From contig CM049309.1 in NCBI GenBank assembly GCA_026874595.1, forward strand, positions 55,030,079 through 55,094,078: a stretch of DNA of 64,000 bases, written 5' to 3'. Position numbers and translations under genes: made by a program. Under the pieces are notes generated by a model, which made no database searches, was not told the DNA's origin, and worked only from the letters and a program-made list of their open reading frames with translations. This document shows positions 5,013 to 59,300 of the stretch, piece by piece. Positions within the stretch are counted from its first letter, which is position 1, and each line of letters starts with the position of its first letter. The DNA is from Sipunculus nudus (lineage: Eukaryota; Annelida; Sipuncula; Golfingiida; Sipunculidae).

Positions 5013-6950
5013 CAAATTGGTTGAATTTGCGCAGATTAAGACAAGTGCCCTGACAAAATGGATGGGGTTCGCAAAGTGAATGAGGCTAATTGACAGGGTG
5101 TTGTGTCTATCGCAGAGAGATCATTCTCCGCCATGTTTTCATATTTAACGTTCCATCCTTTTATTTCTTGTAGACATATTGCCGATTTGCGGATGAAAAT
5201 CGGTCCTCCCGAGTCGCCTCAAGTTTGCAGCAGACGACAGCTGTGCCGCCATGATAGATTGGCGGGAGCGGCCTGTTCACACCTCTCTTGTTTCTGCTTC
5301 TGTCTGTGTCCCCGACAGGTGTCCAAGTTCACAGTATCTAATTCATCCTCGTCCACATTAGATTCACTAAACACCAAGCCGGGCAATTTAAATACATCTA
5401 TAGAGCACGGCAATACCATGGATCAGGTATTCCTTCACATGGACAAAAATTAATTCTTTTTCCTTTCTTTAATTAAAGGTGTCAGTAGCGTCAATTTATC
5501 TACAAAGGGGAGGGGGGGGGGGGTAATCAAAGTTGGGCAACCTTTTTATAAATATATATATATGTGTGTGTTTATATATATATATATATATATATAATAT
5601 TATATATATATAATTGTAATAAAGAAATACAATTAATCTATTGCAATTTTTTTAATGGTATATCTATATAGAATGCTAGGAAAAAATTACCCGAGCCTAC
5701 ATTATACATGTATATGTCTCAGCTACGGCTGCATGGATCACACAGGAAATTTAGCAAATAATGCAAGTTTGTAACGGTTCAACATTTTTGCATCAAAGGT
5801 TAACCCGTGGTTCCATTGAATGCTTGGCTCAAGCCTGAAATGGCCCGATGTAAGACATCGTGCTGTCTCACATGCAGTAAATTTAAACATCATTTATGTA
5901 TGGTAATCAAAAATACCTTTAAAAATAATGTTTGTTCCTTTGGGTTTTAAGCTAACTTTCCAAGAAATTTAAGAAAAAAATCATAACTTTTTTTGATAAA
6001 TATGGTGACAGACAAACCATCCGACCATGCAGTCAAGTAACCAACCAACCAATGACTACAGTAAAATATATATATATATGCCTCCCGACGCCGACGAGCA
6101 CATGTATAAAAATGAGGCGGGATGATCTTCTTTGGTAAAATATATTTGTTATAAATAAATAAAAAGATGTGTGAATATCATACATACACGTTAATCTATA
6201 AGTGAAACTTTATTTTAGATGGTTAAACTGACCTGATTTTGTTTTGAGAATGACTTCAGTATATCTATAATGTATCTTCAGTGTAAATCTAACAAACCAT
6301 ATAAATAGAAAATCAAAGGGGAAATTCAAGAAACATTCGGATGAGAATTTGCGGGAGTAAGATAAACTGAGTAAGATTTGATTTGGACCAGGTTAATTCG
6401 CTCTATATATTTACGTTGCCTGTTGATGACTGTGAACGCGGTGTAGCATGCGCCCTCTCAAGAGATAAGTACCTATACATCTACATACGCTGAGATACAA
6501 GCCCGGCGGGGTCTCACTAAATAATAAATCAGGACGAGGCATTGTTCTTTTATTCTTCTCAACTGATGTAAGAACGATTGTTAGTCCGCACGCTGTATAA
6601 CCTGCCGCGAGCTCGTTTAGGGTGGGTCCTCGTACGGCGGTCCATCAGCCCGGCTGTCAGTCCGCGCTGTCAGGGAAAGTCCCCGGGACGTATCAAATTA
6701 TTCAATCCATAATTTACGTCAAATGTAATCTATTATGTAAAATATTTGAATGAAAGGAGGAAGCATGGTCTTATAAATGAGCTTAAATAACATTCAGTCA
6801 TGTTTCTTTCGCAGAAGTTCCGTACAAGAATTTTTTTACATACTTTATTATCAGCAGTCTTATACCACCGTGTATGCAAAGATAGTTTTGTTTGAATTTT
6901 CATGTATGTTTAACGTCTAAATAAGACTGAGTTCGTTGAGAGGCTGAAGA
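5013..6950. other. Intergenic, no gene seen
   Basis: A frame open at 5103-5453 shows no recognisable domain and I do not call it. A G-rich tract lies at about 5510-5523 and mixed TA microsatellites at about 5558-5612. Nothing else could be supported. Confidence 0.5.
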
Positions 6951-24868: not shown

Positions 24869-26274
24869 GGTGACAAAAAAAAGTCTACGCTATGCAGCAA
24901 TGGATCACCACAGATCATAGGAGCATTCAGATACATTCCCTGAGCGCAATCTACGGTGCCCCCTGTGTGTGCATAGCAGAACTATCATTTGGGCTGCATT
25001 AAATTACTGTTTAGCAGATGGATGCTGCTGACGTGTGTTTAGTCCTGTTACATTGACTGAAATCATGTGTACTAAAACGTGAAGAATGGCATGTAATCTA
25101 GAAGGATAATTTATGAATGTTTAAAGAGGGGCGATTCATACATGGATATTGACGGGGTGGTCGTTTTCTTGAATTGAGATAAGGATGTGTGTATGGAGGC
25201 AATAGAGGGTCATGGTATTATCATAATTACCACCGCAGTCGCACAGACAGACCAGCAAAACCTGTCCATATATAATGTTGTCTGTGCATTTAATAATACT
25301 TAAAATAGAGATCAGCCATGCTGCCCTCTGGAGGCGGGTCATTTAACTAATGTTCATGTATTTGTGAAGTTGGCCAAGTTCACACAGCTGTACATAGAGA
25401 CATACATCCGATTTCTCATTTGTTCCCGACATTAAAACGTCTTGGACGTCCCTGTTAACTGTTTCCGATTTGGCTACAATTTCAAGAATTTACAATTTTG
25501 AGAATTTACAATTTCTCAAAAGCTGTTAACTAATGATACACCTTTTCATAGCCAAGGCTACAATTCAAATATTTAGACAGGTCATCATTTTCAATTTTGT
25601 TTTGACACCAGTGAGGAAGTTAACTGTTCAAACAGAATTATGAAGGAGAATGTACACATTTTCATGGACTCGTTTCTATTATAATGAAGAAGCCTGTGAG
25701 TCTGGTAAAATGGTATAAATATTTAATAATTTGATAAGAATAATCATTATAAATACACCCCAAACTTAAGTATGAACCAGAACCATTCATGGTTTGTTAA
25801 TGTCTACACCTTGGGCAAATGTATTTTATGATGCACAATTAGGTCAAACTAATTACAACAACTAATTCAAAATCTATATTTTATTAAATAAAAGTGTATA
25901 AAAAGCGGAATGACATACATGTATTTACAGAATGATGAGGATCACATTTTTAAATGAGTTTGAAAAAATATTCACAGCCCAATACTCTAATGCTGAAATA
26001 CCTTTGACCCTTTGTTACCCTGTCATGGTAAGACTAAGGGGTGGATAAAAGCAACCATGTGTTGTGCCCTTATGATTTAAGAAATATCAGTTCAGTGATG
26101 GACTATTCACAGTAAAATCTAGCTGATTCAATCTATGGTTGAGAAATATGAACTTCAGCAAGTAAACTACCAGAATTTAAGACTTAAATTCAATATATGT
26201 AACACAGCAACAACAAAAGAGAGAACAAACATGTAGCCGATGAGAACTAGAACACTTGTGACAGGTGGAGTTAG
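24869..26274. repeat. 1.4-kb tandem duplication, copy 2 (proximal to PIGW)
   Basis: The copy contiguous with the intact PIGW terminal exon (26167-26381), hence probably the original. It includes the last 108 coding bases and about 1.3 kb of 3' flank. A 68-residue frame on the minus strand (25136-25342; same in copy 1 at 23718-23924) is identical in both copies, which reflects recent duplication and not demonstrated constraint. Confidence 0.93.
25880..25885 (-). promoter_or_regulatory. Candidate PIGW polyadenylation signal
   Basis: AATAAA on the minus strand, about 280 bases beyond the PIGW stop codon. The duplication repeats it at 24462-24467, so two tandem signals exist downstream of the gene. 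The hexamer is common in AT-rich DNA, so confidence is limited. Confidence 0.4.
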
Positions 26275-26381
26275 CAAAGTATTCATGGAAAAATTCACAG
26301 CTCCGGTCAGCAAGTTAGCCAACAGAAAGTAAAAAAGTCCATTTCTGTTAACTGCTTCCAGCAAGCAAAATCCTTTTGGAC
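26167..26381 (-). CDS. PIGW: PIGW coding exon 7 (terminal)
   Basis: Residues 417-486 and TAG. It begins [20 protein letters not shown], then [16 protein letters not shown], and ends with LKFW, close to the vertebrate QFW end. Acceptor TTTCAG|G. Its last 108 bases lie in the tandem duplication and recur at 24755-24862. Confidence 0.95.
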
Positions 26382-29300
26382 CTGAAAAAGTAGAAGTAAA
26401 CAAGTGATACATAAGATTTATATACCTATTAAATATAGTTTCTATTATTATTGCCTTGCTGCAGTGGAAATGCTTGGAACAGAAATATGATTTTGCCCTA
26501 GAAAAAAGGTCTAACACATGATTAAATAGTGGTAAACAGTGTCGAAGAATGGTCTTATTTTAGCAGCTGTCTGTAGACAAGTAAAAGTTTATTACAGTTT
26601 GGTCTTATTTGAGCAGATGAAATGCAGGACTACAGTGGAACCTGTCTGAAATACAACCTGTCTAATAAGACCACCTGAGAATTAAAACCAGTTTTAGCTA
26701 GTTTCACATGTGGTCTTATTACACAGGTTTCACTCTATTTATATACATATTTATTTCTTTTTTTTTATTTATTTCTTATTTATCTTAACATTTTTATGGC
26801 ACTTCCATATTTTGGTTCTAAGATTTTATTTCTGTAAGATCTAAATTTTGTTTTTGTGTATAGATCTAAAATTTTCTTCAAGCTTTCAACTTATCCTACG
26901 AGTCATGTTAAGCATCACTGGATCTAACAGAAGCAAATGAAAAATTCAAAATTTGCAATGACACATTGGGTTCTCTGTGTGGTTGCAGTAACTCACCTTC
27001 CCTCTGACCTAAGACCACAGCCTGGAAGAGTGTCCATATCAGATCTACTGCTAGAAATCCAACAAGTTTAGCCACTGTGAATCCAAGCTGAAAGAATAGA
27101 AACATACAGGAGGAAACTGGCTATTGTGATTCAAGGGCTAATCACAATATTGATGAAAGAAAGTGCCTTTTATACAGCCTGGCACATGATGACATCTAGT
27201 GAGTGAAGGGTAAACTAAAATTCCATGTTATTTTAACCCATATCCAATCCCCTTTTTGGTTTTGAACATTAAGCAGGAATGTGGGACATCAGTCCCATAT
27301 GATGCCCCTTAACTAGAAGTAAAATAATTTTAAATTACATATACAGCAACAAAGTGCCTCCTCTTAAACTGTGACCAAACAGGTCATCCATTGTCTAGTT
27401 ATCACAAAGGCCAAACAAAATTTATTATGTGTTTCTCAGGCACTTTTTCCGAAAAATGATGCCGGCAGGTGGCATTTTTTTTTTTTTTTACCATGAAAAA
27501 AGCATAAACTATCATTATTTCTCATGCACTGGCATAGAAATGACAACCAATGGTTAAAATATGAGATATAAACTATTTATAGGTCAAATAAATCAAATGT
27601 TTGAAAGGATCTTTGAAAGATGCGACATTTTCATTTCTTTTACATGTAATATTAACATGCAAATCAGATTATATAGGAATATGGGTGTCAAAATCTTGCT
27701 GTGAACCTCTGAACAAGAGGATCACGCTAAAGTTAATGACACTGAAATGCATGATGGTCATGCATTGTCAATACAGGATCTGATATTGTTTCATAAAGAA
27801 ATACAACAGAAATTTCTTTACGTCTTACATAATATTTGTTGCTTTTCTAATTTGAATTTTAATTGTAAAAGAAGTATATGGAAGTTTGTTTAACTAGTGG
27901 CCCATGAGCCATGACGCTCAGCTGAATTCAAGGAATGTTGAACAATGACCAAAATGACAGCAAGAATGCAAAAAAATCATGAATTTTGTGAAGAATCCGA
28001 AGGAATGGATTTCAGTGGGCTTTTGGACAGATGACCACTTCATTTGAAGGTCTCATAAATAGAAACTAGAATATAAGCAGAAGCTAACAAAAGCCCTCAG
28101 CCAAAAGAACAGTGTTTATAGGTGGTAACAATTAAAAGTATGAAATATTTGTACTAACATGGATGTATATCTGTACATGTCTAAGTTATATAAATTTAAA
28201 CTGGAGAAGTATGTAGTGCATTTGCAAGTATGACTAATCACATGCAGAACTTGGAGATCATCAAGGCATATAATTATACCATGTTTCATAACAATCCACT
28301 CATTGGTTCCTGAGAAATGAGCTCCTAAGTTTTTTCTATTCTTAGCTATGTGACCTTGAAAAGTATGTCACAGTCACCCATCTTTGAACTTGACCAAGAT
28401 TTTGTTGATCTGCATCAGTACTGAAGAAATGAAGTTCTTGTGTTGAATACCTATGGAGATATCCCATTCACAAGCTTGTCCAAAGTTGAAAAATCCATTA
28501 AAATTCATCATATTCAGAAATTGTAGGTGGCACCCCCAAACTTGTGCAGCAGGTACAGACCATCAGTCCCAATAATCATAGTAAGTTTTGTAAAAATCCA
28601 CGCAATGGGTCCTGAGATTTGAGCTCCTAAGTTTTTTTCTATTCTGAGCTCTGTGACCTTAAAAAGTAGGTCATGGTCCCCCATCTTCAAACTTGACTGA
28701 GATTGTGTTAATATGCAGCAGCATTGAAGAAATGAAGTTCCTGTGTTGAATACCTCACAAGGCCAAAACTGAAAAAATCCAATAAAAATTCATTAAGAAT
28801 CAGAAATTGTAGGTGGCACCCCCAAACTTGTGTAGCAGGTACAGACCATAAGTCCCAATAATCATTGTAAGTTTTGTGAAAATCCACCTAATGGTTCCTG
28901 AGAAATGACCTCCTAAGTTTATTTTTATTCTAAGCTATTCTAAGCTCTGTGACCTTGTAAAATAGGTCAAGGTCACCAATCTTCTTACTTGACCAAGATT
29001 TTGTGGTGAATACCTTTAGGGATATCCTGCTCACAAGGCAAAAACTGAAAAATCTGATAAAAATTCATTAAAAATCAGAAATTGTAGTTGATGGCCCCAA
29101 ACTTGTGCAGCAGGAACAGACCATCAGTCCCAATAATCATAGTAGGATTTGAGAAAATCCACCAAATGGTTCCTGAAAATGGGACAAGGGACCTATCGGT
29201 CATGGCATTCATCTGAAACTGATTCTGAGAATATTTGTATAAAATCCTAGTGGTTGTTGTTGACTGTGCACTTTTATGGACTCTTGAAAGATGCAGGAGC

Positions 29301-32300
29301 CTCTCATGATCACAAACATGTATTTGTATTCAGTTTCAGTATTTCAAATAAATGGCTATAATAAGCATGTAAATATATCCTCTTGGAACATACAAAACCC
29401 TGCAAATTATAGAATAATGAAGAATAATAATACACATTTAATCTATTAACTTAAATAAAATGTTGTAAAAAAAATTTAAAATTTTCCATTTTCAAATGGG
29501 CATAAACTAAATTTGATAAGCAACTACAAACAAGCCAATTAGGTATACACTGCATCTGCACTGTGTAATATATGAAACTTGTAGCCTGAAATTATTTAAT
29601 GATTCAATAAGAAAAAAAAGTAACTATTTTAGCATAGCCTTTTTTTGCATTAGTAGTTTTTACCATTTTCAATTTTGTTTTAATTTACAAATTTAATATA
29701 TTTGCATTAAAAAAATCTGAAAATATAAGTTAATTCAGAATTGTAAGTTGCATCATTATTTACCCTTAGTTTGGCTCATATGAAGTCAAATTATGCATAC
29801 ATATATTATTATATTTTAAATCACAAAATATTAAAACTTAATTTAAAAGATGTTTTAAAGAAAATATCACTTAAACAAGTGGCCCATGGGCCATAACACT
29901 CAGTTAAATTCAAGGAGCCTTGAACAATGGGTAAAATGACTCCCAGAGTGCTCAAAATCATGCATTTTGTAAATATAGGTTACAGCGACCCAATTCTACA
30001 TCCAGCTGCTACCACTTGTGCCCATCTGACTAATAGTGTATTAAAATAATGTTCTTTCACACAGCTGTCAGAAATTAGGGCACAGTGACATTATTTCAGG
30101 TTTCCAAGGAGATATTTTATGGACCTCTCTGAATCTCATGTATGAGGATTTTAGGCCAAATGAATACAATTTGTGCTCCATCTGACTCACTGAGTGCTTA
30201 AAATGATGTTTTCTCCCCTTATATGCAAAATATAGGTCATCATGACCTAATTTCATGTTTCCAGGGAGATTTGTCAAGCACCTCCCTAGATGTAAAGTTA
30301 GAAATTTCTAAGTCTAAAGATTAGTTTGTGCCCTTTTAACAGCCAGACCACTTCATTTTAAGGTCTCAAAAAGAGAGAGAAAAAATGTGTAAAAATTAGA
30401 AAAAAATATGGATGGCACCACCAGTCTGCAGGAACTGATGAAACACTCTATGATCAATATGCACGCAAAAAAATCATGGCAATCAATGCAATAGTTATTC
30501 AGATATTGGAGCTTTTTTATCATATTTTTAATTATTCGGGGGGGGGGGGGGGTACTTATGAGCCTACTGTATGGAGCATATGGATCACAGGGACCTAATT
30601 TCAGGTTTCCAAGGAGATTTTTCATGGACCTCCATGGATGTACTGTTTGAATTTTCTAGCTCTAACAGTTACGATTTGTGCCCTGACGGACAGCCAGACA
30701 AACGACGGCCAAAGGTTGATCACTATAGCTCAGATGACTTACAGTCAGATGAGCTAAAAAACATAATGCCACAAAATGGCACCTTCAAGATTATTCTTTG
30801 AATCATTATTCAAAAAAAGTTTTGAACATTGGAATTTTCAGTACATGATTAATTTTACTGACTAAATAAAGATTCAGTAAATTTGGTTAAAAATCTCCCT
30901 TTTCTGACAAATTTATTATTTTTTTTGGTATGATCCTGATACAATTAACATTTTTTATATGCTGGAAACTTTTTTTACAGGCTGCTGTATAAAGTATGTC
31001 ACATAGACCTGATTGCTATGACAACTGATCAAACCTGCCTGACCTTCCCAATAATAGTAACAGACAGTAAAACTGAGGATACATAATGATCACTGTATCA
31101 CATTTAACCTATAAATCTGTAAAAAGCTTCTCATTGCAACCTGAATGTAGTGATCAGTGACAGTTGCTTCACAAAATTACACTGAAATCACCATCTATAA
31201 TCATTTTTAAGGGTTTTTTTCCCCCAAGTTAGCTGAGTAGTTTCTATTCGAATCATCCAAAAATACCTCAAGTTAAATAAAAATTTATTATTGTAAGAAC
31301 CGAGGTACAGACAGCATTAAGTACAGAATGGATTCATTGAACATAGAACTGTTCTTGCAAAATCACCAAAATTTAAGAGCTTTAAGGTTTGGCTTAGATT
31401 TATCCAGAATTTGTCAATTATTTAAGATTAGTATTAAATTATTAATTAGCTAAGCCTGATCCAGAGAACAAATTCAGAGCATTAATGATTAATGTTGTAA
31501 ACTTACCATCCACACCACAAATGTGAGGTTAGCGAGTCTTCGTGAGGTGTCTTCTATTGTGATGACACAGACCTGGTGCAGCATCCACAAGAAGATATCT
31601 ACAACCAGGAGCACGCACCACGCCCTCACCCAGTCACCAGCAGTCTGTCTGAAGGGAGAACACCAGGAACATGATGAGGATTGAGAAATACATGGACCTA
31701 ACTATATGAAACAAAGCAGCCATGGGAGGGAGGAACATCAGAAACACACAGTTGTAATTCAGAAATAAAAAATGTTGTGATAATAAAAGACAAAAATCAT
31801 TCTTCAACATATGCTGTGCATCCCAAAAGGGAACATGGTGTGGAATGAGAGTACATGATAATAAGTGGCAGCAGATAGCTGACCTTCAAACCATAATACC
31901 AGTAGTAAGAAACAAGATGAGTCTGTCTCAGTCTTGTATATCTTGCATATATCAGGTTGTTAAAATGATAGGTGTCTCAGTCAGTGAAATAACCTGATGT
32001 TTTCTTTTCATGTCTGTGAATCCATGATAAAATAGATGTATATTATCTCTTGATTTAATTTCCTATATTTGTCTCTTCTCTTGTGGGGATAATTGTTTAT
32101 TGTTAAGGAAAAAGTGTCCAACATCTTAAACAAATGTAGCCAACAAAAAACATACTAAATATCTAATTTACAGCAAAATAAAATTATTAATCTGCTCACA
32201 ATGTGCCTTATACTTGCTGGAAAAACATTAACTTGCAGGAAAAAGTTGCACACTGTGCTAAACTTTGTTTAAATTGTGCTACTCTCTGAGATTACAGAGA

Positions 32301-35300
32301 CACCATTTGGATTAAGTACAGGCAAGTTTAACAATTTTTTAAATAAGATAAAAGTTCGTCACACATCCTCTGTTTACAGAAAAAAAACAATCAATAAATA
32401 AATTTCAAAAGAATAATATTTTGTGTATGATAAAAAGACCCTGACCTTGGCTGCAGGAGGTATTGTCCAAGCTGAACTCCTGCCAGAAACAGAGAGAGGT
32501 ACCCCAGGCAGGAGCATATCCCTTCTCTGTTAGCATTGAACCAGCCATCCCTGGAATCTCCACCATCTGTACCGTGGAGAATAACATCAACCAGCCCGTG
32601 CCTTGTCAGCAGCCACTGATAACCAACTCCAGTTGCTATAGACAACAGCAGACTGTACCGTCCATCCACAATACTGAACACAATGCTTGACAAAACCTGA
32701 AATTTAGACAGATATTCATTCAGGTACTAATTATGTATGTTAATATAATTTTTTTTATAAAAAAAGTTTCTATACAAAAAGAAGTCACAGCACCCCTTTA
32801 AATGTCTGATTAAATGTAAAGCCAATATACCCTATTTTTATAGTGAGCATTATATGGGTTATATAAAAAAGACAGTTATATGATGAACAGATGAACAAGT
32901 GACCAACTGGTCACAGAGCTCAGCTGAGGGGCTCATCCTGTGATACTTTTCAAATATAGGATATCTATATATGAGGAAAAGAAACAAAATGAGGAGTGTA
33001 GATATTGCACCATCTATGAGCAAATTGAACATTTTCAAGGAGATTCCATCCCAAACTATCAGGATGTCAGGTTAGACTTCCAAGGACTTATGGATACCAT
33101 TTGTACTTTTCTAATGACTAATTTGTGTGTCAGCTGGCTGTATGGCTGAATGAAAGATGGTGGACAAACACTCATCTTATCTATAACTGAAAGCTAGGTG
33201 AGCTAAAAACCTTTCAGTTGATGGAAACATAAAGCATATTTATGTATACATTTTCTTACTTCACTATTAAAACTCCTTTGTATCAGTAATTTTAACCTGT
33301 TTATAGATCCTCTCTCACTTTAAATGCCTTATCAGTAATCTGAAAAGAGACCAGATCGAGCATATATGTTGGACAACATACACAAGAGACAACAAAAGCT
33401 CTCTTAAATTCAGCTGACTGATAGTCACATAAAAGTACCATTGGCACTTACAAAAGAATCCTGCTGAATGATGGATTTGCAGGTACATTAATTTGTACTA
33501 ACATACAATACATTGTTTTATACATACCCTAACCACAGCCAGTGTGAAGAAAAAGTTCCAGTGAACCCCATACTCTGACACATGTTCCTGGTAGTCAGTG
33601 GACTTAACTGCAAGAAGTCGAGCAGCCCCCAAAGCCAAGAGTGGCCAGGTGGAAACTACTGACTTGCAGATTGATAGAAGTGTACCCTGCAGTGACCTGT
33701 GAAAAATATTGTATTTTGTGAAGGTTTAATGGGAATGAGTGAGATATAGAACATTTTATAATTCCAGTGATATACTATATAAACAGCAAAAACCATTAAT
33801 ATTATTTCATATATGCACAAGTTTAACCAAATTTTATTAATATTTAATGTTCAAGGACATTTCAAGGCTCTTAAAGATACAACTTTGGATTAGCAAGATA
33901 TTTTCAAATTGCCCCTTTACCAGCCTATATGATGCCATTTTTCACAAGGTTAAGCATGGCTTACTTCTCATAGTAACAGTCAGCCATTAGAATGAAATTC
34001 AAGGTCATTTAAAATTTTCACAATCAGCCAAATTCAAGAACTGGTACTTTTAAAGGAATTTTAGCATGTAGGCACCCTGATATCTTACATTAATCTTTCT
34101 CAGCAAGACAAGTAGAGTCTCAAGTAGAAGTAGGAATATAATGAAATCAGTCTGAACAGTCTGAGGAAAAGTATAAGGTAAACACTGATCATGTCTGGTG
34201 GTTTGTATATCCATTGTCACTATGTCTGTTATTTACATGTTAAGAATTGCCAAGATGTATTTCATTGTTTTCTGGAGATCTCGGACCTTTTACATCTCGG
34301 CCCACACAAAGTTGGACCACTTAGTACAATCTCGGACCACCCCATCGACGATCTCAGACCACATTCCGTACCATCTCGGACCACTATATCGGACCCGTTC
34401 AGACCTTGTTCAGACTCATGATGTCGTTGTCAAATGTGTATGTTCCATCTTCAAACGATGTTAAAGCTAATTATTAAACCATTATTACTCCACACATAAC
34501 TGTTGCCTCTCTCTCTTTATCATTCTATCCATCATTAATCATTCGCTACATATCGTCTTTATACTAATTTATAAATAATTCTAAAGTGTGTGCATTTGAT
34601 CATGTATACGAGTGTGCGTGATAAAGAATAAAAGAGAGACAGAATGAATGTAAGATTTAATGAATGAAAGAATAAATGAAAGGTTGAATGAGAGAAAGAT
34701 TGAATGAATGAATGAATGAATGAATGAAAGAAAGAATGAACGAAAAAAAGATTTAATGAAAGAAAGATTGAATGAATGAATGAATGAATTAATGAATCAA
34801 TGAAAGAATGGATGATAGACAGACAAAATAAATGAGGGATTGAACGAAGGAAGGAAAGAATGAATGAAAGAAAGATTAATGAAAAAAATGAAAGAAAGAT
34901 TGAAGGAATGAAGGAAGGAAAGAATGAATGATAGACAGATTGAATGAAAGAAAGAGTGAATGATAGACAAAATGAATGAAAGTTTGAATGAGACTAAATG
35001 AATGAATGAATGAAAGAAAGAATGAATGAAAAAAATTTTAATGAACGAAGGATTGAATGAATAAATGAAAGAAATATTGAATGATAGACAGACAAAATAA
35101 ATAAAAGATTGAATGAAGGAAGGAAAGAATGAATGAAAATAAGAAAGGTTGAATGATAGACAGTTTGGATGAAAAAAAAATTGAATGAAAGATAGTCAAA
35201 ATGAACTAGAATACGGGTAGTCGACAAGCGACTATGTGTATCCGCCTAAATCAGAGTGGAACGGGTGAAGTGAGGCATGGATTGAGTGGCAAGGGAAAAT

Positions 35301-38300
35301 TAAGTGCTGCATATTAGCATGGATGTCTGCAGCCAAATTGTGTATGTAGGTTGCCCCCCATACCACAAAATCCAGAAAGCCGTCCAAGTTGTATACATAT
35401 GAAAAATTTAAGGCAGATAAGTCAAACCACTACATGTATATGAGTGATTTTAGCCCGTGGCAGACAAACAGATGGACGCTGAGCAAAAATGGTTGCAGGT
35501 GACGCCACCAGTTTTGCGTATGATAAAGAGCTTTGTGAGAACTATACACATGCAAAACTTTGGTCCAATCGGTCAAACAGTTCCCAAGATATGAGCTTGG
35601 ATGTCTGCTGCATAAACTAGAATGCAGGTGGCGCCACCTGTCATAAAATCAAGAGAGCTGTCGGGGATGTATAAACCTGCAAAATTTTAGGCAGATATGT
35701 CAAACCACTGCCGAGATATGAGTGATTTTATCCAATGGCAGACAAACAGACAGGAGCTGTGCAAAAATGGCTGCAGGTGGCGCCACCAGTTTTGCGTATG
35801 ATGAAGAGCTATGTGAGATCTATACACATGCAAAATTTTGGCCTAATCGGTCAAACGGTTCCTGAGATATGAGCTTGGATGTTTGCAGTGTAAACATGAA
35901 TGTAGGTGGCGCCACCTGTCATAAAATCAGAAAAGCTATCCAGGATGTTTAGGCATGCCGAATTTCAGGTGAATTTGTCTAGTCACTGCAGAGATATGAG
36001 TGATTTTAACCCAAGGCAGACAAACAGATGGACACTGTGCAAACATGGTTGCAGATGGCGCCACCATTTTTTGTGTATGTTATAAAGCTCTCCAAGGGCT
36101 ACATTTGTGCAAAAAAATTTTCCTGATCGGTCAAACGGTTCCCGAGATATGAGCTTGGATGTCTGCAGCGTAAATGTGAATGTAGGTGGCTCCACCTGTC
36201 ATAAAATCAGAAAAGCTATCCAGGATGTGTATGCATGCCGAATTTCAGGTGAATTAGTCAAGTCACTGCAGAGATATGAGTGATTTTAACCCAAGGCAGA
36301 CGAACAGATGGACACTGTGCAAACATGGTTGCAGGTGGTGCCACCATTTTTTGTGTATGTTATAAAGCTCTCCAAGGGCTACATATGTGCAAAAAAATTT
36401 TCCTGATCAGTCAAATGGTTCCCGAGATATGAGCTTGGATGTCTGCAGTGTAAACATGAATGTAGGTGGCGCCACCTGTCATAAAATCAGAAAAGCTATC
36501 CAGGATGTTTACGCATGCCGAATTTCAGGTGAATTAGTCTAGTCACTGCAGAGATATGAGTGATTTAAACCCAAGGCAGACGAACAGATGGACACTGTGC
36601 AAACATGGTTGCAGGTGGCGCCACCATTTTTTGTGTATGTTATAAAGCTCTCCAAGGGCTACATTTGTGTAAAAAAATTTTCCTGATCGGTCAAACGGTT
36701 CCTGAGATGTGTGGGTTTATGTGTGGAAACAGACACACAAACGGACGCAGAGCGCAGAGGAAAGGTCAGAGGTCAAAACAAAATCGGGGCGCAGCAGTTC
36801 ACATGTGACCCGAACAAAATCCCGGGTTTCGTAAAAATTCCACCCAGCGGTTACGGAGGAGTTCTCCGGACACCTACGTGGCGGCGGCGGCGGCGGCGGC
36901 GTGCAGCTGAAAACATAGTATCCGCAAAACTCTGTTTTGGCGGATACAATGAAAGATTGAATGAGAGAAAGACTGAATTTCGTTTTTATATTGTATATAT
37001 ACGAAATTCTAATAATCTTTTTCAGCTCTTTGAGTTTAAACATGGTGTCAATTCCCACTTTTGAATTTCTGTTTTATGTATATATCTAAACTACAACTGT
37101 TTTCACTCTTTAATATTATCTAGTACAGTAGTTTAATAGTAGATATGTAACAGCGAAACACCAGTTCTGATTCTTTGATTCACACATGCTCACTTGTTCA
37201 TTTTCGGTTTATGTAGTTTTATCACAAATTTCACATTTCAGTTTTCATACCTCTTTTAATATTGTTTATATTAAATAAATTCTAATAAACTTTGTCATTT
37301 CCCTTTGAGTTTGAATATGGTGTCATGCGTTTCACACAAACTATTATAAATTAAGTGTAAGTGTGTGCTTGTGTGTGTCAAATGTTTTCTGAGTGGATAT
37401 ACATACTGAGCTATGTCGTAGGCCTAACTTTGTCCAAATGGAATTTTTAATATCTGAATCGCGCGCAGATGAAATAATATTGTGTATTATAAACATAACA
37501 TTGGTTATTTCATAACAGTTTAGGCGGCTAGGACATGTATGTTACTTTGGTCCGAGGTCGTAGTTGCCCGATTGCAAAGTGGTCCGAGATCGTTGGCCCA
37601 GTGGTCCGAGATCGTAATGGTCCGATCTGAAGTGGTTCAACTTTGTGTGGTCGGAGATCCCCAGGTACCATTTCATTTGTATCATTCTATACACAATAAA
37701 ACTGCATAATACTGGTGAATATTATTCAAAACTTGGGGAGGAGGTCCAAATAGGTAATGAAGGGCTGTTTTTGATAACACTTGACCTATTTCTGGTGTCC
37801 TTGCCTCTGGCCTCGGGGCAGACAATGGCATTAGAGAGAATGAAGGAGCCGACACCCACATCCATCAAGCCAGTCCCGTAGGTCTCTGCTTTACAAAACC
37901 TCCTGGGATATACAGCAAAGTCCACAGCAAGAATACCCAGACAGGACGCCATGTTGACATAGGCTCGGTAATGAGTGATGAAGGGTCGCTTGCCTCCCAT
38001 AGGTATGCTGAAGAAATCCTCCTGGACAGACGGTGTTTGTCTAGTTTGTGTCTGGTCCAGCATTAGCTGCTGACCCACCATAGCAAGCCCCAGGCTGGTC
38101 AAGAAGACTGCCAGGAGAACTGCTGTGGTCTGATCAGCCAGCACAGTAAAGCAGAAGACATTGGTCAGAATCAGCAGGAAAAAGTCCAAGACAAACTTCA
38201 CACTGAAACAGCAGAAAAAAAAATATTCAAATTTAGATAAACAGTAATTCAAAATCAATTAAGCACTTTTAAAAGACAAAGTCCTGATTAAATAACAAAA

Positions 38301-41847: not shown

Positions 41848-42460
41848 ACTAGAGTACGGGTAGTCGACAAGGGACTATGTGTATCCGCCAAAATCAGAGT
41901 GGAACAGGTGAAGTGAGGCATGGATTGAGTGGCAAGGGGAAATAGAGTGAGGTGTGTTGCATATTAGCATGGATGTCTGCAGCTGAAATGTGTATGTAGG
42001 TTGCGCCACCTACCACAGATCCAGAAAGCTGTACAAGTTGTATACATATGCAAAAATTTAGGCAGAAAAGTCAAACCACTACATGTATATGAGAGATTTT
42101 ATCCCACAGCAAACAAACAGAAGGACTTGTGCAAAAATGGTTGCAAGTGGCCCCTCCAGTTTTGTGTATGATAAAGAGCTATGTGAGATCTATTCACATG
42201 CAAAATTTTGGCCTAATCGGTCAAACTGTTCCCGAGATATGAGCTTGGATGTCTGCAGGGTAAACTAGAATGTAGGTGGCGCCACCTGTCGTTAAATCAA
42301 GAAAGATATCCAGGATGTATACGCATGCGGAATTTAAGGTGAATTAGTCAAACCACTGCGGAAATAGGAGTGATTTTAACCCAAGTCAGATGAACAGATG
42401 GACACTGTGCAAACATGGTTGCAGGTGGCGCTACCATTTTTTGTGTATGTTATAAAGCTA
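41848..42460 (+). mobile_element. GGTGGCGCCACC element, copy 2 (3' truncated)
   Basis: Same 5' end as copies 1 and 3 (ctagagtacgggtagtcgac, then TGTATCCGCCAAAATCAGAG). Palindrome variants start at 41999, 42146, 42275 and 42424, spacings 147, 129 and 149 bp. It breaks off at 'gttataaagct', where copies 1 and 3 continue with 'ctccaagggctaca', and the 19-bp minisatellite begins. Confidence 0.8.
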
Positions 42461-43536
42461 TGCAGGTTAGGTCTGAGAGTGCAGGTTAGGTCTGTGAGTG
42501 CATTTTTGGTCTGAGACTGCATGTATGGTCTGAGAATGCATGTTTGGTCTGAGACTGCATGTATGGTCTGAGAGTGCACATAGGTCTGAGACTGCATGTT
42601 TGGTCTGCGAGTGCATGTTTGGTCTGAGACTGCATGAATGGTCTGGGAGTGCATGTATGGTCTGAGAGTGCATGTTAGGCCTGAGACTGCATGTATGGTC
42701 TGGAGTGCATGTTTGGTCTGAGAGTGCGCGTTTGGTCTGCAAGTGCATTTTTGGTCTGAGACTGCATGTTTGGTCTGAGAGTGCATGTTTTGTCTGTGAG
42801 TGCATTTTTGGTCTGAGACTGCATGTATGGTCTGAGGGGGCATGTTTGGTCTGAGAGTGCATGTTTGGTCTGAGATTGCATGTATGGTCTGAGAGTGCAG
42901 GTTAGGTCTGAGAGTGCATGTTTGGTCTGAAAGTGCATGTTAGGTCTTAGAGTGCATGTTTGGTCTGAGACTGCATGTATGGTCTGAGAGTGCACGTATG
43001 GTCTGAGAGTGCATGTATTGTCTGAGAGTGCATGTTTTGTCTGTAACTGCATGCATGGTCTGAGACTGCATGTTTGGTCTGAGAGTGCATGTTTGGTCTG
43101 AGACTGCATGTATGGTCTGAGAGTGCATGTATGGTCTGAGATTGCATGTATGGTCTGAGAGTGCAGGTTAGGTCTGAGAGTGCATGTTTGGTCTGAAAGT
43201 ACATGTTAGGTCTTAGAGTGCATGTTTGGTCTGAGACTGCATGTATGGTCTGAGAGTGCACGTATTGTCTGAGAGTGCATGTTTTGTCTGAGAGTGCATG
43301 ATTTGTCTGTAACTGCATGTATGGTCTGAGACTGCATGTTTGGTCTGAGAGTGCATGTTTGGTCTGAGACTGCATGTATGGTCTGAGAGTGCATGTATGG
43401 TCTGAGAGAGCATGTATGGTCTGAGAGTGCATGTTTGGTCTGAGAGTGCATGTATGGTCTGAGAGATCATGTATGGTCTGAGAGTGCATGTATGGTCTGG
43501 AGTGCATGTAAAGTCTGAGAGTGCATGTTTGGTCTC
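42460..43536 (+). repeat. 19-bp minisatellite (~56 copies)
   Basis: Units resemble tgcatgtatggtctgagag with variation mainly at three positions (ta/tt in 'gtatgg/gtttgg', and 'agag/agac'). Because 19 is 1 modulo 3, three units make a 57-bp, 19-codon repeat and stop-free frames appear in all three minus-strand frames, with MHSQT...SDQTCTLRPN-like text. Not a gene. Higher-order repetition (blocks at 42845-43130 and 43145-43390 nearly repeat each other) indicates segmental amplification. Confidence 0.93.
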
Positions 43537-43547
43537 AGTAATCATAA

Positions 43548-43697
43548 TCAATAATCACACTGCGTTTCAGGACACTGGATGAAACCACAGCTGAGAAACT
43601 GACATAATTGCTATCATTTAATGGTCTCAAAAACAGAAAAAAAAAGTTAGAAAAAAATACAAGTGGCACCACCAGTTTTAGGGAACTGTTAAAACTA
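43548..43697 (+). repeat. Left half of an interrupted dispersed repeat
   Basis: 'cactgcgtttcaggacactg' through 'ggcaccaccagttttaggga' and 'aaaacta' matches 45337-45473. The match resumes at 44312-44445 after the 43700-44309 insertion. It belongs to the family at 29874-30757. Confidence 0.8.
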
Positions 43698-43699
43698 TA

Positions 43700-44309
43700 G
43701 TCCGTTCCAGCACCCATGTCCACCTGTTTTTTTGCGTTTATCTCTACAAAAGACAAACTTGCAAATCAAAATTTGCACCAATGGCATAAAAAGGCAAAAG
43801 CGTAATTTTTAGTACCTTACCTACTCAAAATATAAATATCATTCACTTTACGGCCTGGTTGACATATCTCATATATACCAGTGGTTCATGCCGTCCCTAA
43901 TAAGTGGCCATTGTTTATCCTCCTTGTATAAAGTAATGTGATGTAACAGTGAAGTGCGTGCACGTGGAGAATACAAGTCTCGCTGTAAACAGGGGTCGGC
44001 AGCTCTTGATTATTGGTCCCATGAATATGGGCGCCTCTTTAGTACGTCACGTCTATTATGACGTCATCACTAATCCCTGATATGCCCATTTCACAGATTA
44101 GTGGCACGATGTCGCTATAGAATAGACTTGTTACTCATAAAATGGTTTTAAATTGTTTACAGGAAAATGACATAAGGTACGCTATTATTTCCATAATAGT
44201 TAATTACGCTTTTTCCTCTTTCTGCCCTAAGATTAAAAAGTTTGGACATTCTTTGATTATCAAAAAAATAATCACGAAAAAACAGGTGGACAGGGGTGCT
44301 GGAACGGAC
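43700..44309. mobile_element. 610-bp TIR element inserted in a repeat
   Basis: Left end GTCCGTTCCAGCACCC then TGTCCACCTGTTTTTT; the right end is its inverse, AAAAAACAGGTGGAC then AGGGGTGCTGGAACGGAC, about 34-bp inverted repeats with few mismatches, flanked by TA at both ends. The paralogous repeat near 45466 (aaaactagtcatggtc) lacks the insertion. There is no long frame inside. The TA target and end structure point to a Tc1/mariner-type non-autonomous element. Confidence 0.85.
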
Positions 44310-44311
44310 TA

Positions 44312-44564
44312 TGGTCATGGTCACTCAATATTCAAGGCAAGATTCATGGCTATCCATGCATTAATTATCAAGATACTGGAGGTTTTTAGTGAACATTTTT
44401 AAATTATTCTCGGGGGTACTTACAAGGGATATTTTATTGACCTTCACAGATGTAGAGGTCCAGTGATTACGATTTGTGCCCTGCTAAGGGACGACCGGAC
44501 GGCCAGACGGACGGACAGACAAAGTATAGTTATACCTCAGTTGACTTTCAGTCAGCTGAGCTAA
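44312..44564 (+). repeat. Right half of the interrupted repeat, with hairpin-CTAA end
   Basis: 'tggctatccatgcattaatt' and 'cgggggtacttacaaggga' match 45505-45580. It ends with the hairpin CTCAGTTGAC / GTCAGCTGAG and CTAA at 44561-44564. Confidence 0.7.
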
Positions 44565-50595: not shown

Positions 50596-52123
50596 ATGCC
50601 CCCGCCACAAACTGGCCGGGGCATATAGTTTTACCCATGTCCGTCATTCCGTCCTTCCGTCATTTCAAAATCAAACAGTTGTACAGACTTTTTTTCGCAT
50701 TGCCTGCAGATATTGGCCTGATTTTTGGTGTGTGGGCAGATACAGACCAGTTACAGATCGAGTTCGCGTTTCGTCCCGGTTGACCTACTTTTAACTGTTT
50801 TACGGCTCCTAAACTTAGAAAATTTCATGAAAAATAAAAATATTCATGACAGATACACATGTACAGACTTTTTTTCGCAATGCCTGCAGATATTGGCCTG
50901 ATTTTTGATGTGTGAGCAGATATAGACCAGTTACAGATCGAGTTCGCGTTTCGTCCTGGTTGACCTACTTTTGACCGTTTTACAGCTCCTGAACATAGAA
51001 AATTTCATGAAAAATATGAAATTTCATGACAAATACACATGTACAGACTTTTTTTCCCAGTGCCTGCAGATATTGGCCTGATTTTTGGTGTGTGGACAGA
51101 TATAGACCAGTTACAGATCGAGTTCGCGTTTCGTCCCGGTTGACTTACTTTTCACCGTTTTACGGCTCCTAAACTTAGAAATTTTCATGAAAAATAGAAA
51201 TATTCATGACAGTTACACATGTACGGATTTTTTTTTTCGCAATGCCTGCAGATATTGGCCTGATTTTTGGTGTGTGGGCAGATATAGACCAGTTACAGAT
51301 GGAGTTCACGTTTCGTCCCAGTTGACCATTTTTTGACCGTTTAACGGCTCCTAAACTTAGAAAATTTCATGAAAAATAGAAATATTCATGACAGATACAC
51401 ATGTACAGACTTTTTTTTGCAATGCCTGCAGATATTGGCCTAATTTTTAGTGTGTGGGCAGATATAGACCATTTACAGATCGAGTTCGCATTTCGTTCCG
51501 GATGACCTACTTTTGACCATTTTACGGCTCCTGAACATAGAAAATTTCATGAAAAATATGAAATTTCATGACAAATACACATGTACAGACTTTTTTTCGC
51601 AATGCCTGCAGATATTGGCCTGATTTTTGGTGTGTGGGCAGATAATGACCAGTTACAGATGGAGTTTGCATTTTGTCTCAGTTGACCTACTTTTGACCAT
51701 TTGACTGCTCCTGAACATAGAAAGTTTCATGAAAAATATAAATTTTCATAACAAATGCATATGTACTGACTTTTTTCCTCAATGCCTGCAGATACCACCC
51801 TGATTTTTTTTGTGTGGGCAGATAATGAGAGTTACAGATCGAGTTTGCGTTTCATCCCGGTTGACCTACTTTTGATTGTTTTACGGCTCCTAAACATAGA
51901 AAATTTCATGAAAGACAGAAATTTTTTTTGGAAAATGCACATGTATGGACTTTTTTTCACAATGCCTGCATATACTGGCATGATTTTTGGTGTGTTGCTT
52001 GATAATGACCTGTTACAGATCGAGTTTGCATTTTGCCCTTGTTGACCTACTTTTGACCATACGACACCTCCTGAACTTAAAAAATTTTCCAAATGTTTCT
52101 AATTTGCCCAAGGCGGGGGCATT
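50596..52123. mobile_element. ATGCCCCCGCC-bounded element with 8 x 180-bp tandem units
   Basis: Inverted ends ATGCCCCCGCC (50596) and GGCGGGGGCAT (to 52123). Inside, gtacagactttttttc or variants start at 50681, 50861, 51041, 51221, 51403, 51583, 51763 and 51943, a regular 180-bp period. Unit text includes cctgcagatattggcctgat and agttacagatcgagtt. No coding frame of note. The architecture (short inverted ends around a tandem array) parallels the GGTGGCGCCACC elements, but the sequences are unrelated by eye. Confidence 0.8.
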
Positions 52124-54479: not shown

Positions 54480-56135
54480 ATTTTAGTTAAAAGTAATATG
54501 TAATTGTAATTATTATTTTATAATGTCTGCTCCATGTATTATACCGGAAGTCACTCAAGTCTTAGTACAAAAGGGAACTTTAAATAATTTTGTGTCCATC
54601 AGGTGCCAACAATATTGAAACTGAAGTTGATTCGTCAAGCAAATACAAGTGTGTTTCTTGACAACTCCAGACTTCATGAATAGCCTCTATAATTTGCCAT
54701 GATAATTAATGTGTTCATCTGGTTTGGCATGTATGGTATCTCTAATGACTTTTCTTAATTAATTAACACCTGGCTGCCAGAAGTGGTTACTTGAACAGGC
54801 ATGGGCAGTCAAGCACATCATGATATGTGAAATACTATCATGGGCAGTCCAGGTTCACTCTTAGTGTGATGTTATACTTCATTGTTATTGGTCATAATTT
54901 GTAAGCTGTAATTTTATTGGTCATTCTTATATTGTTTGGTGAATGTATAAAAGATAGTAAAGGTGAGACAGTCAAGATACAGACCTGCACCCAGTTTGTC
55001 AGGCAACATAAGCATGTACATAAATGAGAAATAAATTACATAATATAAAAAAGAAGAAGTTGTCAACTGTATACTGGAGCTAACCTCAACCCTAAGCGTT
55101 GACCAAACAATGAACTGCAAATTTGGTTAGACTATTCTACCCAGGTTTTACCCAGTTAATTATCCAGGTTTTTCACATGATTTTCTGCTTTTATCATACA
55201 TGAGGATCCTGCCTTAGTTTCTTTGTGGCTGGTAAGCAGTGGTTATATACATACATTTAATAAATGTTGGTTGTTGACCACATGACCCCAGTCACAACTG
55301 GAAGCAGCCATTTTTTAGTCACACTTGAATTTATGTTTGGCAATGCAGAGCACATCACTAATCGACAGGGATGATACAACTTCACTACTGTTGCTTCTTC
55401 TGGATTCACTTAACGTGTTTTCAGTTCTTATAGACTTATCCACACCAAACTGTGCAACTATTTTGGAAATGAGAAAGCCCAGAAACTGGTTTCCTGTGAT
55501 ATACATCAGTCATTGTCATTTTGCCTTCATTTGGTTTGTATGACTCTCTTTCACAGGAACAGTGGTTACAGCTGCTCTCACTCTTGAGGTACTATAACCA
55601 GAATGCACTGAATTCATACTATTTTGAATGTTGTAGAATGAAAATAATAATTAATTTTAAAATAATATTTAAACATTTGTTGTCTTTTCTTACATTAACT
55701 ATATGATTAAAACTAAGGAAATATGGGAATGAAAGAGCCTAGGTAAAACCTACCTGGCTAAAACCCATTAATATAACCTGGACAAGTGGGTAAAACCTGC
55801 TAACCCTGAACAGAAACAGCTATTTATATAAGTTTCCCAGTTTTAATGTTCTATACTGAGTATACTCCTTTATTATTTGGAGCCTGTAGGTATTACTTTT
55901 GTTCAGAGTGTTACAGCAAAAATTAAAAAAAAAAACACAAACATAATCATCTGTTTGTATTTTGATTTAGATTTGAGAAGGAATTGGAATAATTCAAATG
56001 GGAATTAGATAGAGTAATAGTGTGTACGGCAACACATCTGATAAACAGGAACGAATGTGATAAATGACTGTAATGAAGCAGGACCATTTCACCATCTTTT
56101 GTACATATTATTTATGAGAGGTGACATTTTTTCAG
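54480..56135. other. Region upstream of RNF144A, no exon placed
   Basis: Unique AT-rich DNA. Short frames at 55315-55543 have no domain. A 5' untranslated RNF144A exon is expected further upstream, because the first recognised coding exon begins at a splice acceptor. Confidence 0.4.
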
Positions 56136-56314
56136 CCCCACCCACCGTCACCCTGGCAGGCCAGCTGTTTAATGTGATGGCTGTGTATTCCGCCAAACGG
56201 AACCGGGTTGATCTAGTGATCGATCCCACAGTCACATGCAAGCTGTGTCTAGGCGATTATTGTCACCAGGATATGTATCAGCTGCAAGACTGCAAATGTC
56301 TTTACTGTGAAAAG
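56136..56314 (+). CDS. RNF144A: RNF144A first recognised coding exon
   Basis: Acceptor TTTTTTCAG ends at 56135. The coding part starts at ATG 56177 ([17 protein letters not shown]) and carries the first half of RING1 to CEK46. Donor AAG|GTAAGT. Bases 56136-56176 are either 5' UTR or, if an upstream coding exon exists, coding. Confidence 0.85.
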
Positions 56315-59300
56315 GTAAGTAATGTTCCGTTATTGAAACAATGAAATATGACAGCAGATTTTCACCTACGTACTGGTATTAATTGTATTCCCAGACAAAG
56401 TCGGGGGATACTATGTTTTCATACCGGTCCCCCCGCCGCTGCCGCATTTAAATCCTGTTGGCGCGATAACTCAAAAAATATTTCACTGATCTTTACAAAA
56501 CTTGGTATATGTATAGATATGGGTGAGAGGACGACCCTATTTAAAATGAGGTCATGACCTTGATTAGGAGAGTGTCCTTGACCTTAATTAGGTCCAATTT
56601 TGGGGAAAATCACACAAATTCTTAAATATCTCAAGAAATCTTGCATGGATTGATCCCAAAATCAAGTTGGTGGAAGATCATGGATAGGATTGTCATGTTC
56701 CAGAAACTAGTGGTGCCACCTGTTATTCTTGTACTTGTTTTTGTGCCATTTAATACCCCCATCATTGCCACTTAACAGTACTGTGAGCATTATAAGTCAA
56801 AAACTAATGGACAGATTTCTTTTATATTATGCTTATACATAGACATGGGTTAGGGGATGATGTATATTGAAATTGGGGTCATGATCTTTTCTATGAGTGA
56901 CCTTTTCTATGAGTGTGGTTTCATAATAATTGTTGCTGAATAGGGGGGGCCTATCCTTAAAGGGGGGGGATTAATTGTCTGGGGATACTATGGCACCTGC
57001 GGTGCCAAGAAATATCCAGTTCTTATCATGCCTGGGATGAATATAAAAATATTTGAACATGAATATAGGTAATAAAAATGTAGGTTCAAAATCATATTTT
57101 GTTAATTACATGAATTATGATGTATTTGATGTTAAATACTTGTTAAAACATTGTAATTTAACACTTGTTCCAGTTAATAACATGCATCCACATGACATTA
57201 TTTTTCTTCTTGATACATGTTTGCATACAAAAATGCCATGGACACAAGCAATTTCATGATTAAAACTAGAATACGGGTAGTCGACAAGCAACTACGTGTA
57301 TCCGCCTAAATCAGAGTGGAACGGGTGAAGTGAGGCATGGATTAAGTGGCAAGGGGAAATAGAGTGAAGTGTTGCATATTAGCATGGATGTCTGCAGCCA
57401 AATTGTGTATGAAGGTTGCCCCCCCTACCACAAAATCCAGAAAGCCGTCCCAGTTGTATACATATGCAAAATTTAGGCAGATAAGTCAAACCACTACATG
57501 TATATAAGTGATTTTAGCCCGTAGCAGACAATCAGATGGACGCTGAGCAAAAATGGTTGCAGTTGACGGCACCAGTTTTGCGTATGATAAAGAGCTATGT
57601 GAGAACTATACACATGCAAAATTTTGGCCCAATCGGTCAAACGGTTCCCAAGATATGAGCTTGGATGTCTGCTGCATAAACTAGAATGCAGGTGGCTCCA
57701 CCTGTCATAAAATCAAGAGAGCTGTTGGGGATGTATAAACCTGCAAAACTTTAGCCAGATATGTCTAACCACTGCCGAGATATGAGTGATAAAGATTTTA
57801 TCCCTTGGCAGACAAACAGACAGGAGCTGTGCAAAAATGGCTGCAGGTGGCGCCACCAGTTTTGCGTATGTTATAAAGCTCTCCAAGGGCTACATTTGTG
57901 CAAAAAAAATTTTCCTGATCGGTCAAACGGTTCCCGAGATATGAGCTTGGATGTCTGCAGCGTAAACTTGAATGTAGGTGGGGCCACCTGTCATAAAATC
58001 AGAAAAGCTATCCAGGATGTATACGCATGCCGAATTTCAGGTGAATTAGTCAAGTCACTGCAGAGATATGAGTGATTTTAACCCAAGGCAGACAAACAGA
58101 TGGACACTGTGCAAACATGGTTGCAGGTGGCGCCACCATTTTTTGTGTATGTTATAAAGCTCTCCAAGGGCTACATTTGTGCAAAAAAAATTTTCCTGAT
58201 CGGTCAAACGGTTCCCCGAGATATGAGCTTGGATGTCTGCAGCGTAAACGTGAATGTAGGTGGCGCCACCTGTCACAAACTCAGAAAAGCTATCCAGGAT
58301 GTATACGCATGCCAAATTTCAGGTGAATTAGTCTAGTCACTGCAGAGATATGAGTGATTTTAACCCAAGGCAGACGAACAGATGGACACTGTGCAAACAT
58401 GGTTGCAGGTGGCGCCACCATTTTTTGTGTATGTTATAAAGCTCTCCAAGGGCTACATTTGTGCAAAAAAATTTTCCTGATCCGTCAAACGGTTCCCGAG
58501 ATATGTGGGTTTATGTATGGAAACAGACGCACAAACAGACGCAGAGTGCAGAGGAAAGGTCAGAGGTCAAAACAAAATCGGGGCGCAGCAGTTCACATGT
58601 GACCCGAACATAATCCCGGGTTTCGTAAAATTCTGCCCAGCGGTTACGGAGGAGTTCTCCGGAAACCTACACCGCCGCGGCGGCGTGCAGCTGAAAACAT
58701 AGTATCCGCAAAACTCTGTTTTGGCGGATACAATTACACCACCCTCTGATAGAAATGGAAACTTTTTTCTCTCTTTTTCATGTTTATATTTTTCAGAAGA
58801 ATTCTTATTCATATTAGATGATAAATGATTAATTAAGAGAAGATTGTGGGAGGTCATCCATATTATGTTTTTTTAACTAATAAAATGCTTAACCTGCTCA
58901 AGCAAATTTATGTTCTCAGAAATATTTTTACCATCCAATCAGTGTTTACAGAGTTGGGATGTACAGCAATTGGGATAAATTCTGTTCATTCATTGAATGT
59001 TTTCAGTGTGTGAAGCAATACCTGGCCATCCTAATCTCAGAAGGAAATGTACTCAGTATCACTTGTCCTGATGCACAGTGTAAGAAACAAGGACACTTCA
59101 GTCCTACAGAGGTAAGCTGTAATAGAGGAGCCACTGTGACTGTGACACATCATAGATAACCCCCAATTTCAACTAAGATTTGTTTAGATATTTCCTTCAG
59201 TGAATAAGAGAGTATGTAACTGTCCATAAACTGAGACAAATACAAGTAATACATACCTGTCCATAAAAGGGAAATAAACACATGATGTCGTAATACGTAC

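Follow-up and report, generated by a model that had tools for sequence, protein, structure and literature searches.

We analysed a 64,000-nucleotide stretch of the Sipunculus nudus genome (assembly GCA_026874595.1, contig CM049309.1, positions 55,030,079 to 55,094,078; hereafter the window), which carries three copies of a non-autonomous Helentron of the HINE type. The central repeats of these elements contain a 12-bp palindrome, GGTGGCGCCACC, that recurs nearly unchanged in repeat families of otherwise dissimilar sequence. Between families the palindrome is conserved, whereas within most testable families it decays at about the rate of its flanks. Because the box of inserted copies decays like the flanks while the founding lineages kept it, selection appears to act on spreading lineages rather than on inserted copies, a conclusion drawn from small samples.

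Allowing up to two mismatches, the window contains 28 matches to GGTGGCGCCACC compared to 0.34 expected, a number that none of 100 shuffles reached. The initial annotation described the palindrome as recurring at alternating steps in three separate elements, and this pattern holds, with steps of 129–133 and 147–155 bp: those read for copy 1 (149, 129, 149, 129, 149, 131, 149, 131 and 149) are exact, and the series for copy 2 (147, 129 and 149) and copy 3 (148, 129, 155, 131, 149, 133 and 149) were recovered as well. Together, the three copies comprise 22 monomers, of which 10 carry the perfect palindrome, eight have one change and four are more degenerate. Lone palindromes had also been listed in other repeats of the window; these are present, with some coordinates corrected (885 to 875, 28521 to 28526 and 43668 to 43662). 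The box at 28526 has a second copy at 28812, and sites additional to that list lie at 988, 45932 and 62805 (minus strand).

In the 1,426,538,692-base host genome (153 contigs), the exact 12-mer occurs 111,729 times compared to 14 occurrences of a reversed control. An unselected sample was also used, consisting of 20 stretches of 10 kb at fixed positions on contigs 1–10 (not randomly drawn). These 200 kb hold 45 boxes (up to two mismatches) distributed over 13 of the 20 stretches, compared to one in reversed DNA. The most widespread non-simple 12-mers in them are AGGTGGCGCCAC and GGTGGCGCCACC, each present in seven stretches; the former is a one-base shift of the box and, being non-palindromic, may be scored twice at a single box, once per side. 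Shifted words of the box are also found in six stretches, and the next palindromic 12-mer in four.

Three sources, namely 20 palindrome-selected loci, the window and the unselected stretches, supplied box instances with their context; clustering kept the 111 that had complete context and scored 15 or more of 20 in the box. Six repeat families of at least three members hold 97 of these instances and are represented by seven consensuses (0a, 0b and 1–5), with 0a built from 21 and 0b from 16 of the 46 rows in family 0. Agreement among the seven is 0.952 in the box compared to 0.338 elsewhere, conditional on recruitment via the box, and the next best separate 12-bp window reaches 0.52, at +83 in the region of a second box. 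The palindromic box itself, referred to as box 1, comes to 13 nearly invariant bases.

Judging from the consensuses, the palindrome is the first of two conserved boxes in the monomers, box 2 being the weaker. In five of the seven consensuses (0a, 0b, 1, 3 and 5), a stretch resembling GAGATATGAG (0–3 mismatches of 10) lies 86–88 bp downstream of the first base of the 12-mer; none was seen at this position in consensuses 2 and 4. When the array at 28489–29181 was compared ungapped with three HINE monomers, the values were 0.63 for box 1, 0.78 for box 2 and 0.37 for the rest; because the best of 2000 random loci reached 0.63 and 0.56 for the two boxes, box 2 is the clearer signal in this comparison. 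Recruitment by box 2 only (up to one mismatch) yielded eight sites, all with an upstream box 1 (up to two mismatches), compared to 40 of 4000 random positions. For family 0 in the unselected stretches, recruitment by flank only gave 0.882 for the box and 0.747 for the flank (17 instances), and two of 109 windows, the box's own included, were as good. Both tests lessen the dependence on recruitment via box 1. Beyond the host, the pattern of box 1, gap and box 2 had no match in the viral_contigs or genome_contigs collections, the box-2 pattern had none in viral_contigs, and a distant blastn search of copy 1 against plasmids returned no match. The sequence GTAGGTGGCRCCACCWGT was found at two loci in viral_contigs (L001 and L002), outside any repeat context; by eye, these look like chance matches.

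The initial annotation had proposed that the palindrome is more than a repeat landmark, which would entail conservation above its flanks. This is the case between diverged families (0.95 versus 0.34, again conditional on recruitment via the box) and is not clearly so within them. Rates of change were compared as flank/box ratios for members recruited by flank, with most weight given to the unselected stretches. There, the ratio was 2.15 in family 0 (n = 17), which pools old lineages, and 0.91, 0.96 and 0.85 in families 1, 2 and 4 (n = 7, 8 and 4). Adding the window gave 2.69, 0.79, 1.11 and 1.12 for families 0, 1, 2 and 4, and with palindrome-selected loci included the ratios were 2.29, 2.01, 1.11, 0.87, 1.48 and 0.56 for families 0–5. 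In three of the four testable families (four to eight instances each), the box decays like its flanks.

The identity of the box across otherwise dissimilar repeat families suggests that the elements may need it to spread. We infer that it may be a protein-binding or replication module required for element amplification, a reading based on sequence to which we give slightly less than an even chance. The box would be needed while an element lineage spreads, and would bind a protein, either a host factor or a partner's Rep/helicase, that would aid transcription, replication or targeting of the element; lineages keeping the box would thereby found new families, and the array would multiply the binding sites. 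This explanation starts from the anatomy of the element, the 111,729 copies, the conservation between consensuses (conditional on recruitment) and the near-flank-rate decay in most testable families. Conservation between families and mostly not among inserted copies separates a selfish need during spread from use by the host, and a box pinned to 13 bases with so many exact 12-mers turns the question of the motif into a direct binding experiment.

Several points weigh against the amplification module. The within-family samples are small (17, 7, 8 and 4), families 3 and 5 have too few members in the unselected stretches and, once the window is added, the box of family 5 is less well preserved than its flanks (ratio 0.51, n = 5). 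Nor are all six families independent: a looser threshold joins families 0 and 4 as well as 1 and 3, giving four clusters and seven single instances. Since the families were recruited via the box, a family that had lost it would be missed. The lead of the 12-mer in the unselected stretches is narrow, with an unrelated 12-mer, AAATTTGGTGAT, present in six of the 20. At weaker box-2 sites, box 1 is much rarer (5 of 34 and 5 of 197); furthermore, the box-2 pattern was derived from box-bearing families and its hits were pooled over families, so the eight sites may be largely family 0. We know of no protein that binds the box, and shared ancestry or exchange without function is an alternative explanation.

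Among other explanations, the box may be bound by CTCF, or by a sister zinc-finger architectural protein, with its sequence read directionally as GYAGGTGGCRC, in which case the elements would scatter site arrays genome-wide; we regard this as unlikely. Some mammalian short interspersed nuclear elements spread CTCF sites. Like those sites, the boxes described here are many mobile-element copies of a CTCF-core-like site; unlike them, they match the overall consensus weakly and belong to several families. The left half of the box is similar to the CTCF core. Exact matches to this core, SYAGRKGGCRS, number 21 in the window compared to 0.44 expected, 19 of them in boxes (the two others, at 23903 and 25321, are unrelated to the box), and a shuffled box contains the core in 111 of 200,000 trials. 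However, it is matched on the box strand in just 12 of the 22 monomers (13 on either strand) and by four of the seven consensuses (0a, 0b, 2 and 5, and not 1, 3 or 4). CTCF orthologues are reported in molluscs and annelids in the available portion of PMC10658182. The full human consensus, CCASYAGRKGGCRS (as given in an excerpt of PMC6746451), is matched only weakly: its CCA part is missing, the best 14-mer scores 9–12 of 14, and 128 of 3000 background 50-mers score at least 11. The right half of the box, CCACC, is also kept though it is no part of the consensus, and the motif was picked after the fact.

Symmetry bears on the same question. Strict maintenance of the dyad is ruled out in the three copies, where the imperfect 12-mers (12 of 22) are asymmetric in 12 of 12 cases. 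Among flank-found instances, palindrome-selected loci included, 107 of 126 were counted, the remainder being excluded for more than four mismatches or for a box displaced too far to the left. Changes number 34 in the left half compared to 68 in the right (P = 0.001 if independent, but the instances are related), and the central CpG changes to CA, which the CTCF consensus allows, 22 times compared to seven changes to TG (P = 0.008 under the same proviso). With the two central bases removed, the halves have 25 and 39 changes (P = 0.10, instances again related), indicating that much of the asymmetry stems from the center. In a broader and unlikely scenario, several Helentron-type families would each have kept the same host-factor site (for a CTCF-class or comparable architectural or replication protein) for a mobility advantage, seeding more than 100,000 near-identical and often arrayed putative sites, in introns as well as elsewhere, and in numbers sufficient to titrate the factor or shape chromosome domains.

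Alternatively, the palindrome could promote array formation and rearrangement, through template switching or breakage, and so mark where repeats amplify, which seems rather doubtful. In the accessible part of PMC5139131, bivalve DTC84 has a conserved palindrome near its repeat junction and 13 of 16 phBglII400 breakpoints lie at the longer palindrome of that repeat; in our data, the array at locus L006 stops 7 bp past a palindrome. In copies 1 and 3 and at locus L027, however, the junction of array and tail lies at box 2, ~90 bp away, the predicted fold of a 46-base single strand with the palindrome is weak (-3.8 kcal/mol, z -1.2), and the box is also found at widely spaced or single positions. 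More doubtful still is that the palindrome is no more than a landmark, a functionless remnant of shared ancestry. Its decay at about the flank rate or faster within families 1, 2, 4 and 5 fits such a remnant, and because box 2 lies at the same spacing in five of the seven consensuses, the families may all be homologous. Nonetheless, a mere remnant sits poorly with the high between-consensus identity in the box, reached despite a decay-prone central CpG, and with flank-found family 0, which keeps the box better than its flanks.

The phasing of the boxes would be a by-product of the repeat unit. The ~280-bp unit had been interpreted as a dimer of a ~140-bp ancestor, which the monomers corroborate: a profile of one half-unit matches nine of the 11 monomers of the other (E = 2e-6 to 1e-3), with partial and weak matches to two degenerate head monomers (E = 0.02 and 0.35), and the two half-units are ~45% identical. 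On this evidence the 280-bp unit is an old dimer, from which the 129/149-bp alternation would follow. Common descent of the three copies was likewise upheld. In trees, monomers from copies 1 and 3 cluster by their position in the array, indicating that the phasing was inherited with it; monomers 35498 and 57562 pair with strong support, the pairing of 35627 with 57691 falls just short of the tree's support threshold, and a further cluster is formed by the three head monomers. In other families the box distances are ~336, 286–300 and 409–1329 bp. A functional role for the conserved spacing, including the suggested positioning of nucleosomes, found no support: that the spacing itself matters, whether by phasing nucleosomes or by setting dimer sites apart, is very improbable because it was inherited with the array and differs between families, although the ~140-bp half-unit of family 0 might point to it.

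By their sequence, the three copies are non-autonomous, HINE-type Helentrons on the minus strand (Table 1). The left end is common to all three and the right end to copies 1 and 3, and copy 3 has subterminal inverted repeats at its ends like those of copy 1. The 3'-terminal hairpin stretch recurs in copies elsewhere, with a stem base changed in some. When joined, the flanks of copy 1 match the neighboring GAATGAAAG array uninterrupted (37 bases, 92%), which argues for insertion at an A/A (T/T) step without duplication; this evidence comes from a single site, copy 1, where the target is ambiguous by one base. The plus-strand end reads ACTAG, equivalent to CTAGT on the element strand. Canonical Helitrons end in CTAG/T at the 3' side, and the 3' end of the element could also be read in this way. 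The window has no open reading frame of 250 amino acids, and stop-to-stop frames overlapping the copies are at most 125 amino acids long; one frame of 187 amino acids at the broken end of copy 2 lies mostly within the adjoining 19-bp array. Judged by frame length alone, the copies have no coding capacity, as is typical of HINEs. The 19-bp array that truncates copy 2 comprises 57 tandem copies.

HINE 5' ends are found in families 0 and 3, in which the subterminal inverted repeats differ and the surrounding pattern is alike; in family 3 this end was seen in four of six rows, the other two not reaching it or being without it. The end of family 2 consists of a CGACGG-type microsatellite and a different terminus and, by eye, is reminiscent of Pearl elements. 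The array period is ~336 bp in family 1 and 286–300 bp in family 5. The central tandem repeats are a very diverged monomer group spread over several families, at least some with HINE-type ends. By eye, family-4-like boxes at loci L006 (~6031–6080) and L030 (~307–370) have right ends of two different HINE families a few bases upstream of them, where the same A-rich target beside the box is possible, either as an insertion preference or as a composite element. Locus L016 apparently has further HINE-like 5' ends (~7488 and 5290) that, also by eye, start inside family-1 repeats at a T-rich step located ~120–130 bp beyond the box.

Elements of this kind are already known. Features of HINE/DINE-1-type non-autonomous Helentrons are given in the available portions of PMC4067079 and PMC7492417, and HINE-type elements with satellite-like repeats, as well as bivalve monomers sharing two motifs, in those of PMC7492417 and PMC5139131. 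Our element resembles HINE/DINE-1 as described in the excerpt of PMC4067079 in its subterminal inverted repeats, the inverted repeat beside the 5' one, 3' hairpin, microsatellite, optional central repeats, TT-type target and lack of coding capacity, and is unlike it in ending in CTAGT on the element strand. With oyster Cg_HINE and Pearl carrying Cg170/BIV160 repeats it shares the module order and 140–180-bp monomers in short arrays, and with Cg170/BIV160 diverged monomers with two conserved segments, a likeness by analogy; the abundance of one exact 12-mer is not mentioned in the excerpts on these repeats (PMC7492417 and PMC5139131). DTC84 of Donax trunculus likewise is an element with a conserved palindrome in its repeats, but placed near the repeat junction, and is likened here by description and not by sequence (PMC5139131, in part). 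The role of the conserved motifs in diverged bivalve satellite-like repeats is left open in the same excerpt (PMC5139131). A literature search including part of PMC8268682, with supplements excluded and most subscription papers outside its scope, found neither the box nor its abundance nor conservation between but mostly not within families. A text search for the 12-mer matched only chitinase work, one for GAGATATGAGC gave nothing on repeats by title among the matches listed, and one for Helitron and CTCF gave no match with the search term in the title.

Table 1. Coordinates of the HINE-type element, its parts and other box-bearing sequences in the window.
Feature	Position	Strand	Remarks
HINE-type non-autonomous Helentron, copy 1	35205–36949	-	complete; between two exons of a GWT1/PIGW-type gene
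5' subterminal inverted repeat with complementary inverted repeat (hairpin)	36917–36948	-	fold -10.9 kcal/mol, z -6.5; subterminal inverted repeat exact
(GGC)n microsatellite within 5' end	36880–36901		seen in sequence; also in four family-3 rows reaching that end
Central tandem array	35311–36725		280-bp dimers (129–131 + 149-bp half-units)
Nine palindrome boxes of copy 1	35498–36625		starts 35498, 35627, 35776, 35905, 36054, 36185, 36334, 36465, 36614
Tenth box of copy 1			degenerate; starts 35349
Box 2 example, ACGGTTCCTGAGATATGAGCT	35855–35875	+	starts 79 bp after start of 12-mer at 35776
3' subterminal inverted repeat	35237–35250	-	93% complementary to 36935–36948
Terminal hairpin TAGTCG-loop-CGACTA near 3' end	35218–35234	-	pairs predicted; whole-segment z only -1.2
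HINE copy 2	41848–42464	-	cut short by 19-bp tandem array (42461–43535)
HINE copy 3	57265–58733	-	complete
Diverged relative	690–1058	+	boxes 745, 875, 988; family 4 by eye
Family-2 copy	1701–2369	+	box at 1884
Family-5 tandem array, 286 bp	28489–29181	+	shares mainly box 1 and box 2 with HINE array, same spacing
Family-1 box	30411–30422	+	
Box resembling family 1	43662–43673	+	by eye
Family-3 HINE piece	56377–56904	+	box at 56709; 5' end signature at 56406, minus strand
Box resembling family 2	62805–62824	-	by eye

Two of the copies are associated with genes. A Pfam scan of 20 stretches, nearly all from the 124 listed stop-to-stop frames, matched GWT1 at three places on the minus strand (E = 2e-37, 3.7e-19 and 2.8e-17), indicating that copy 1 sits in an intron. 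The gene content also marks the window as animal DNA. The exons of this GWT1/PIGW-type gene span 26167–38258 on the minus strand, so the intronic copy lies on the gene's own strand. Copy 3 probably also sits in an intron, that of a gene encoding an RBR-type ligase, an assignment made partly by eye: the exons of this probable RBR (IBR) E3 ligase are at 56045–60426 on the plus strand, with copy 3 and the family-3 piece between or beside them, and the IBR match (E = 0.0011) is below its cut-off. Across the whole window, Rfam gave no family at gathering score and a tRNA scan found none.

Other repeats in the window include a 180-bp tandem array (7.7 copies, 50680–52058) in which no box was found, and a 48-bp inverted repeat (90% complementary, arms 526 bp apart, 43694–44315) that adjoins a box and is possibly a miniature inverted-repeat transposable element. 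Stretches of TGACCTTG or AAGGTCA recur in some families (window 28300–29200 and locus L006, 4960–5200), and a simple count gave 24 occurrences of AAGGTCA in the window on both strands.

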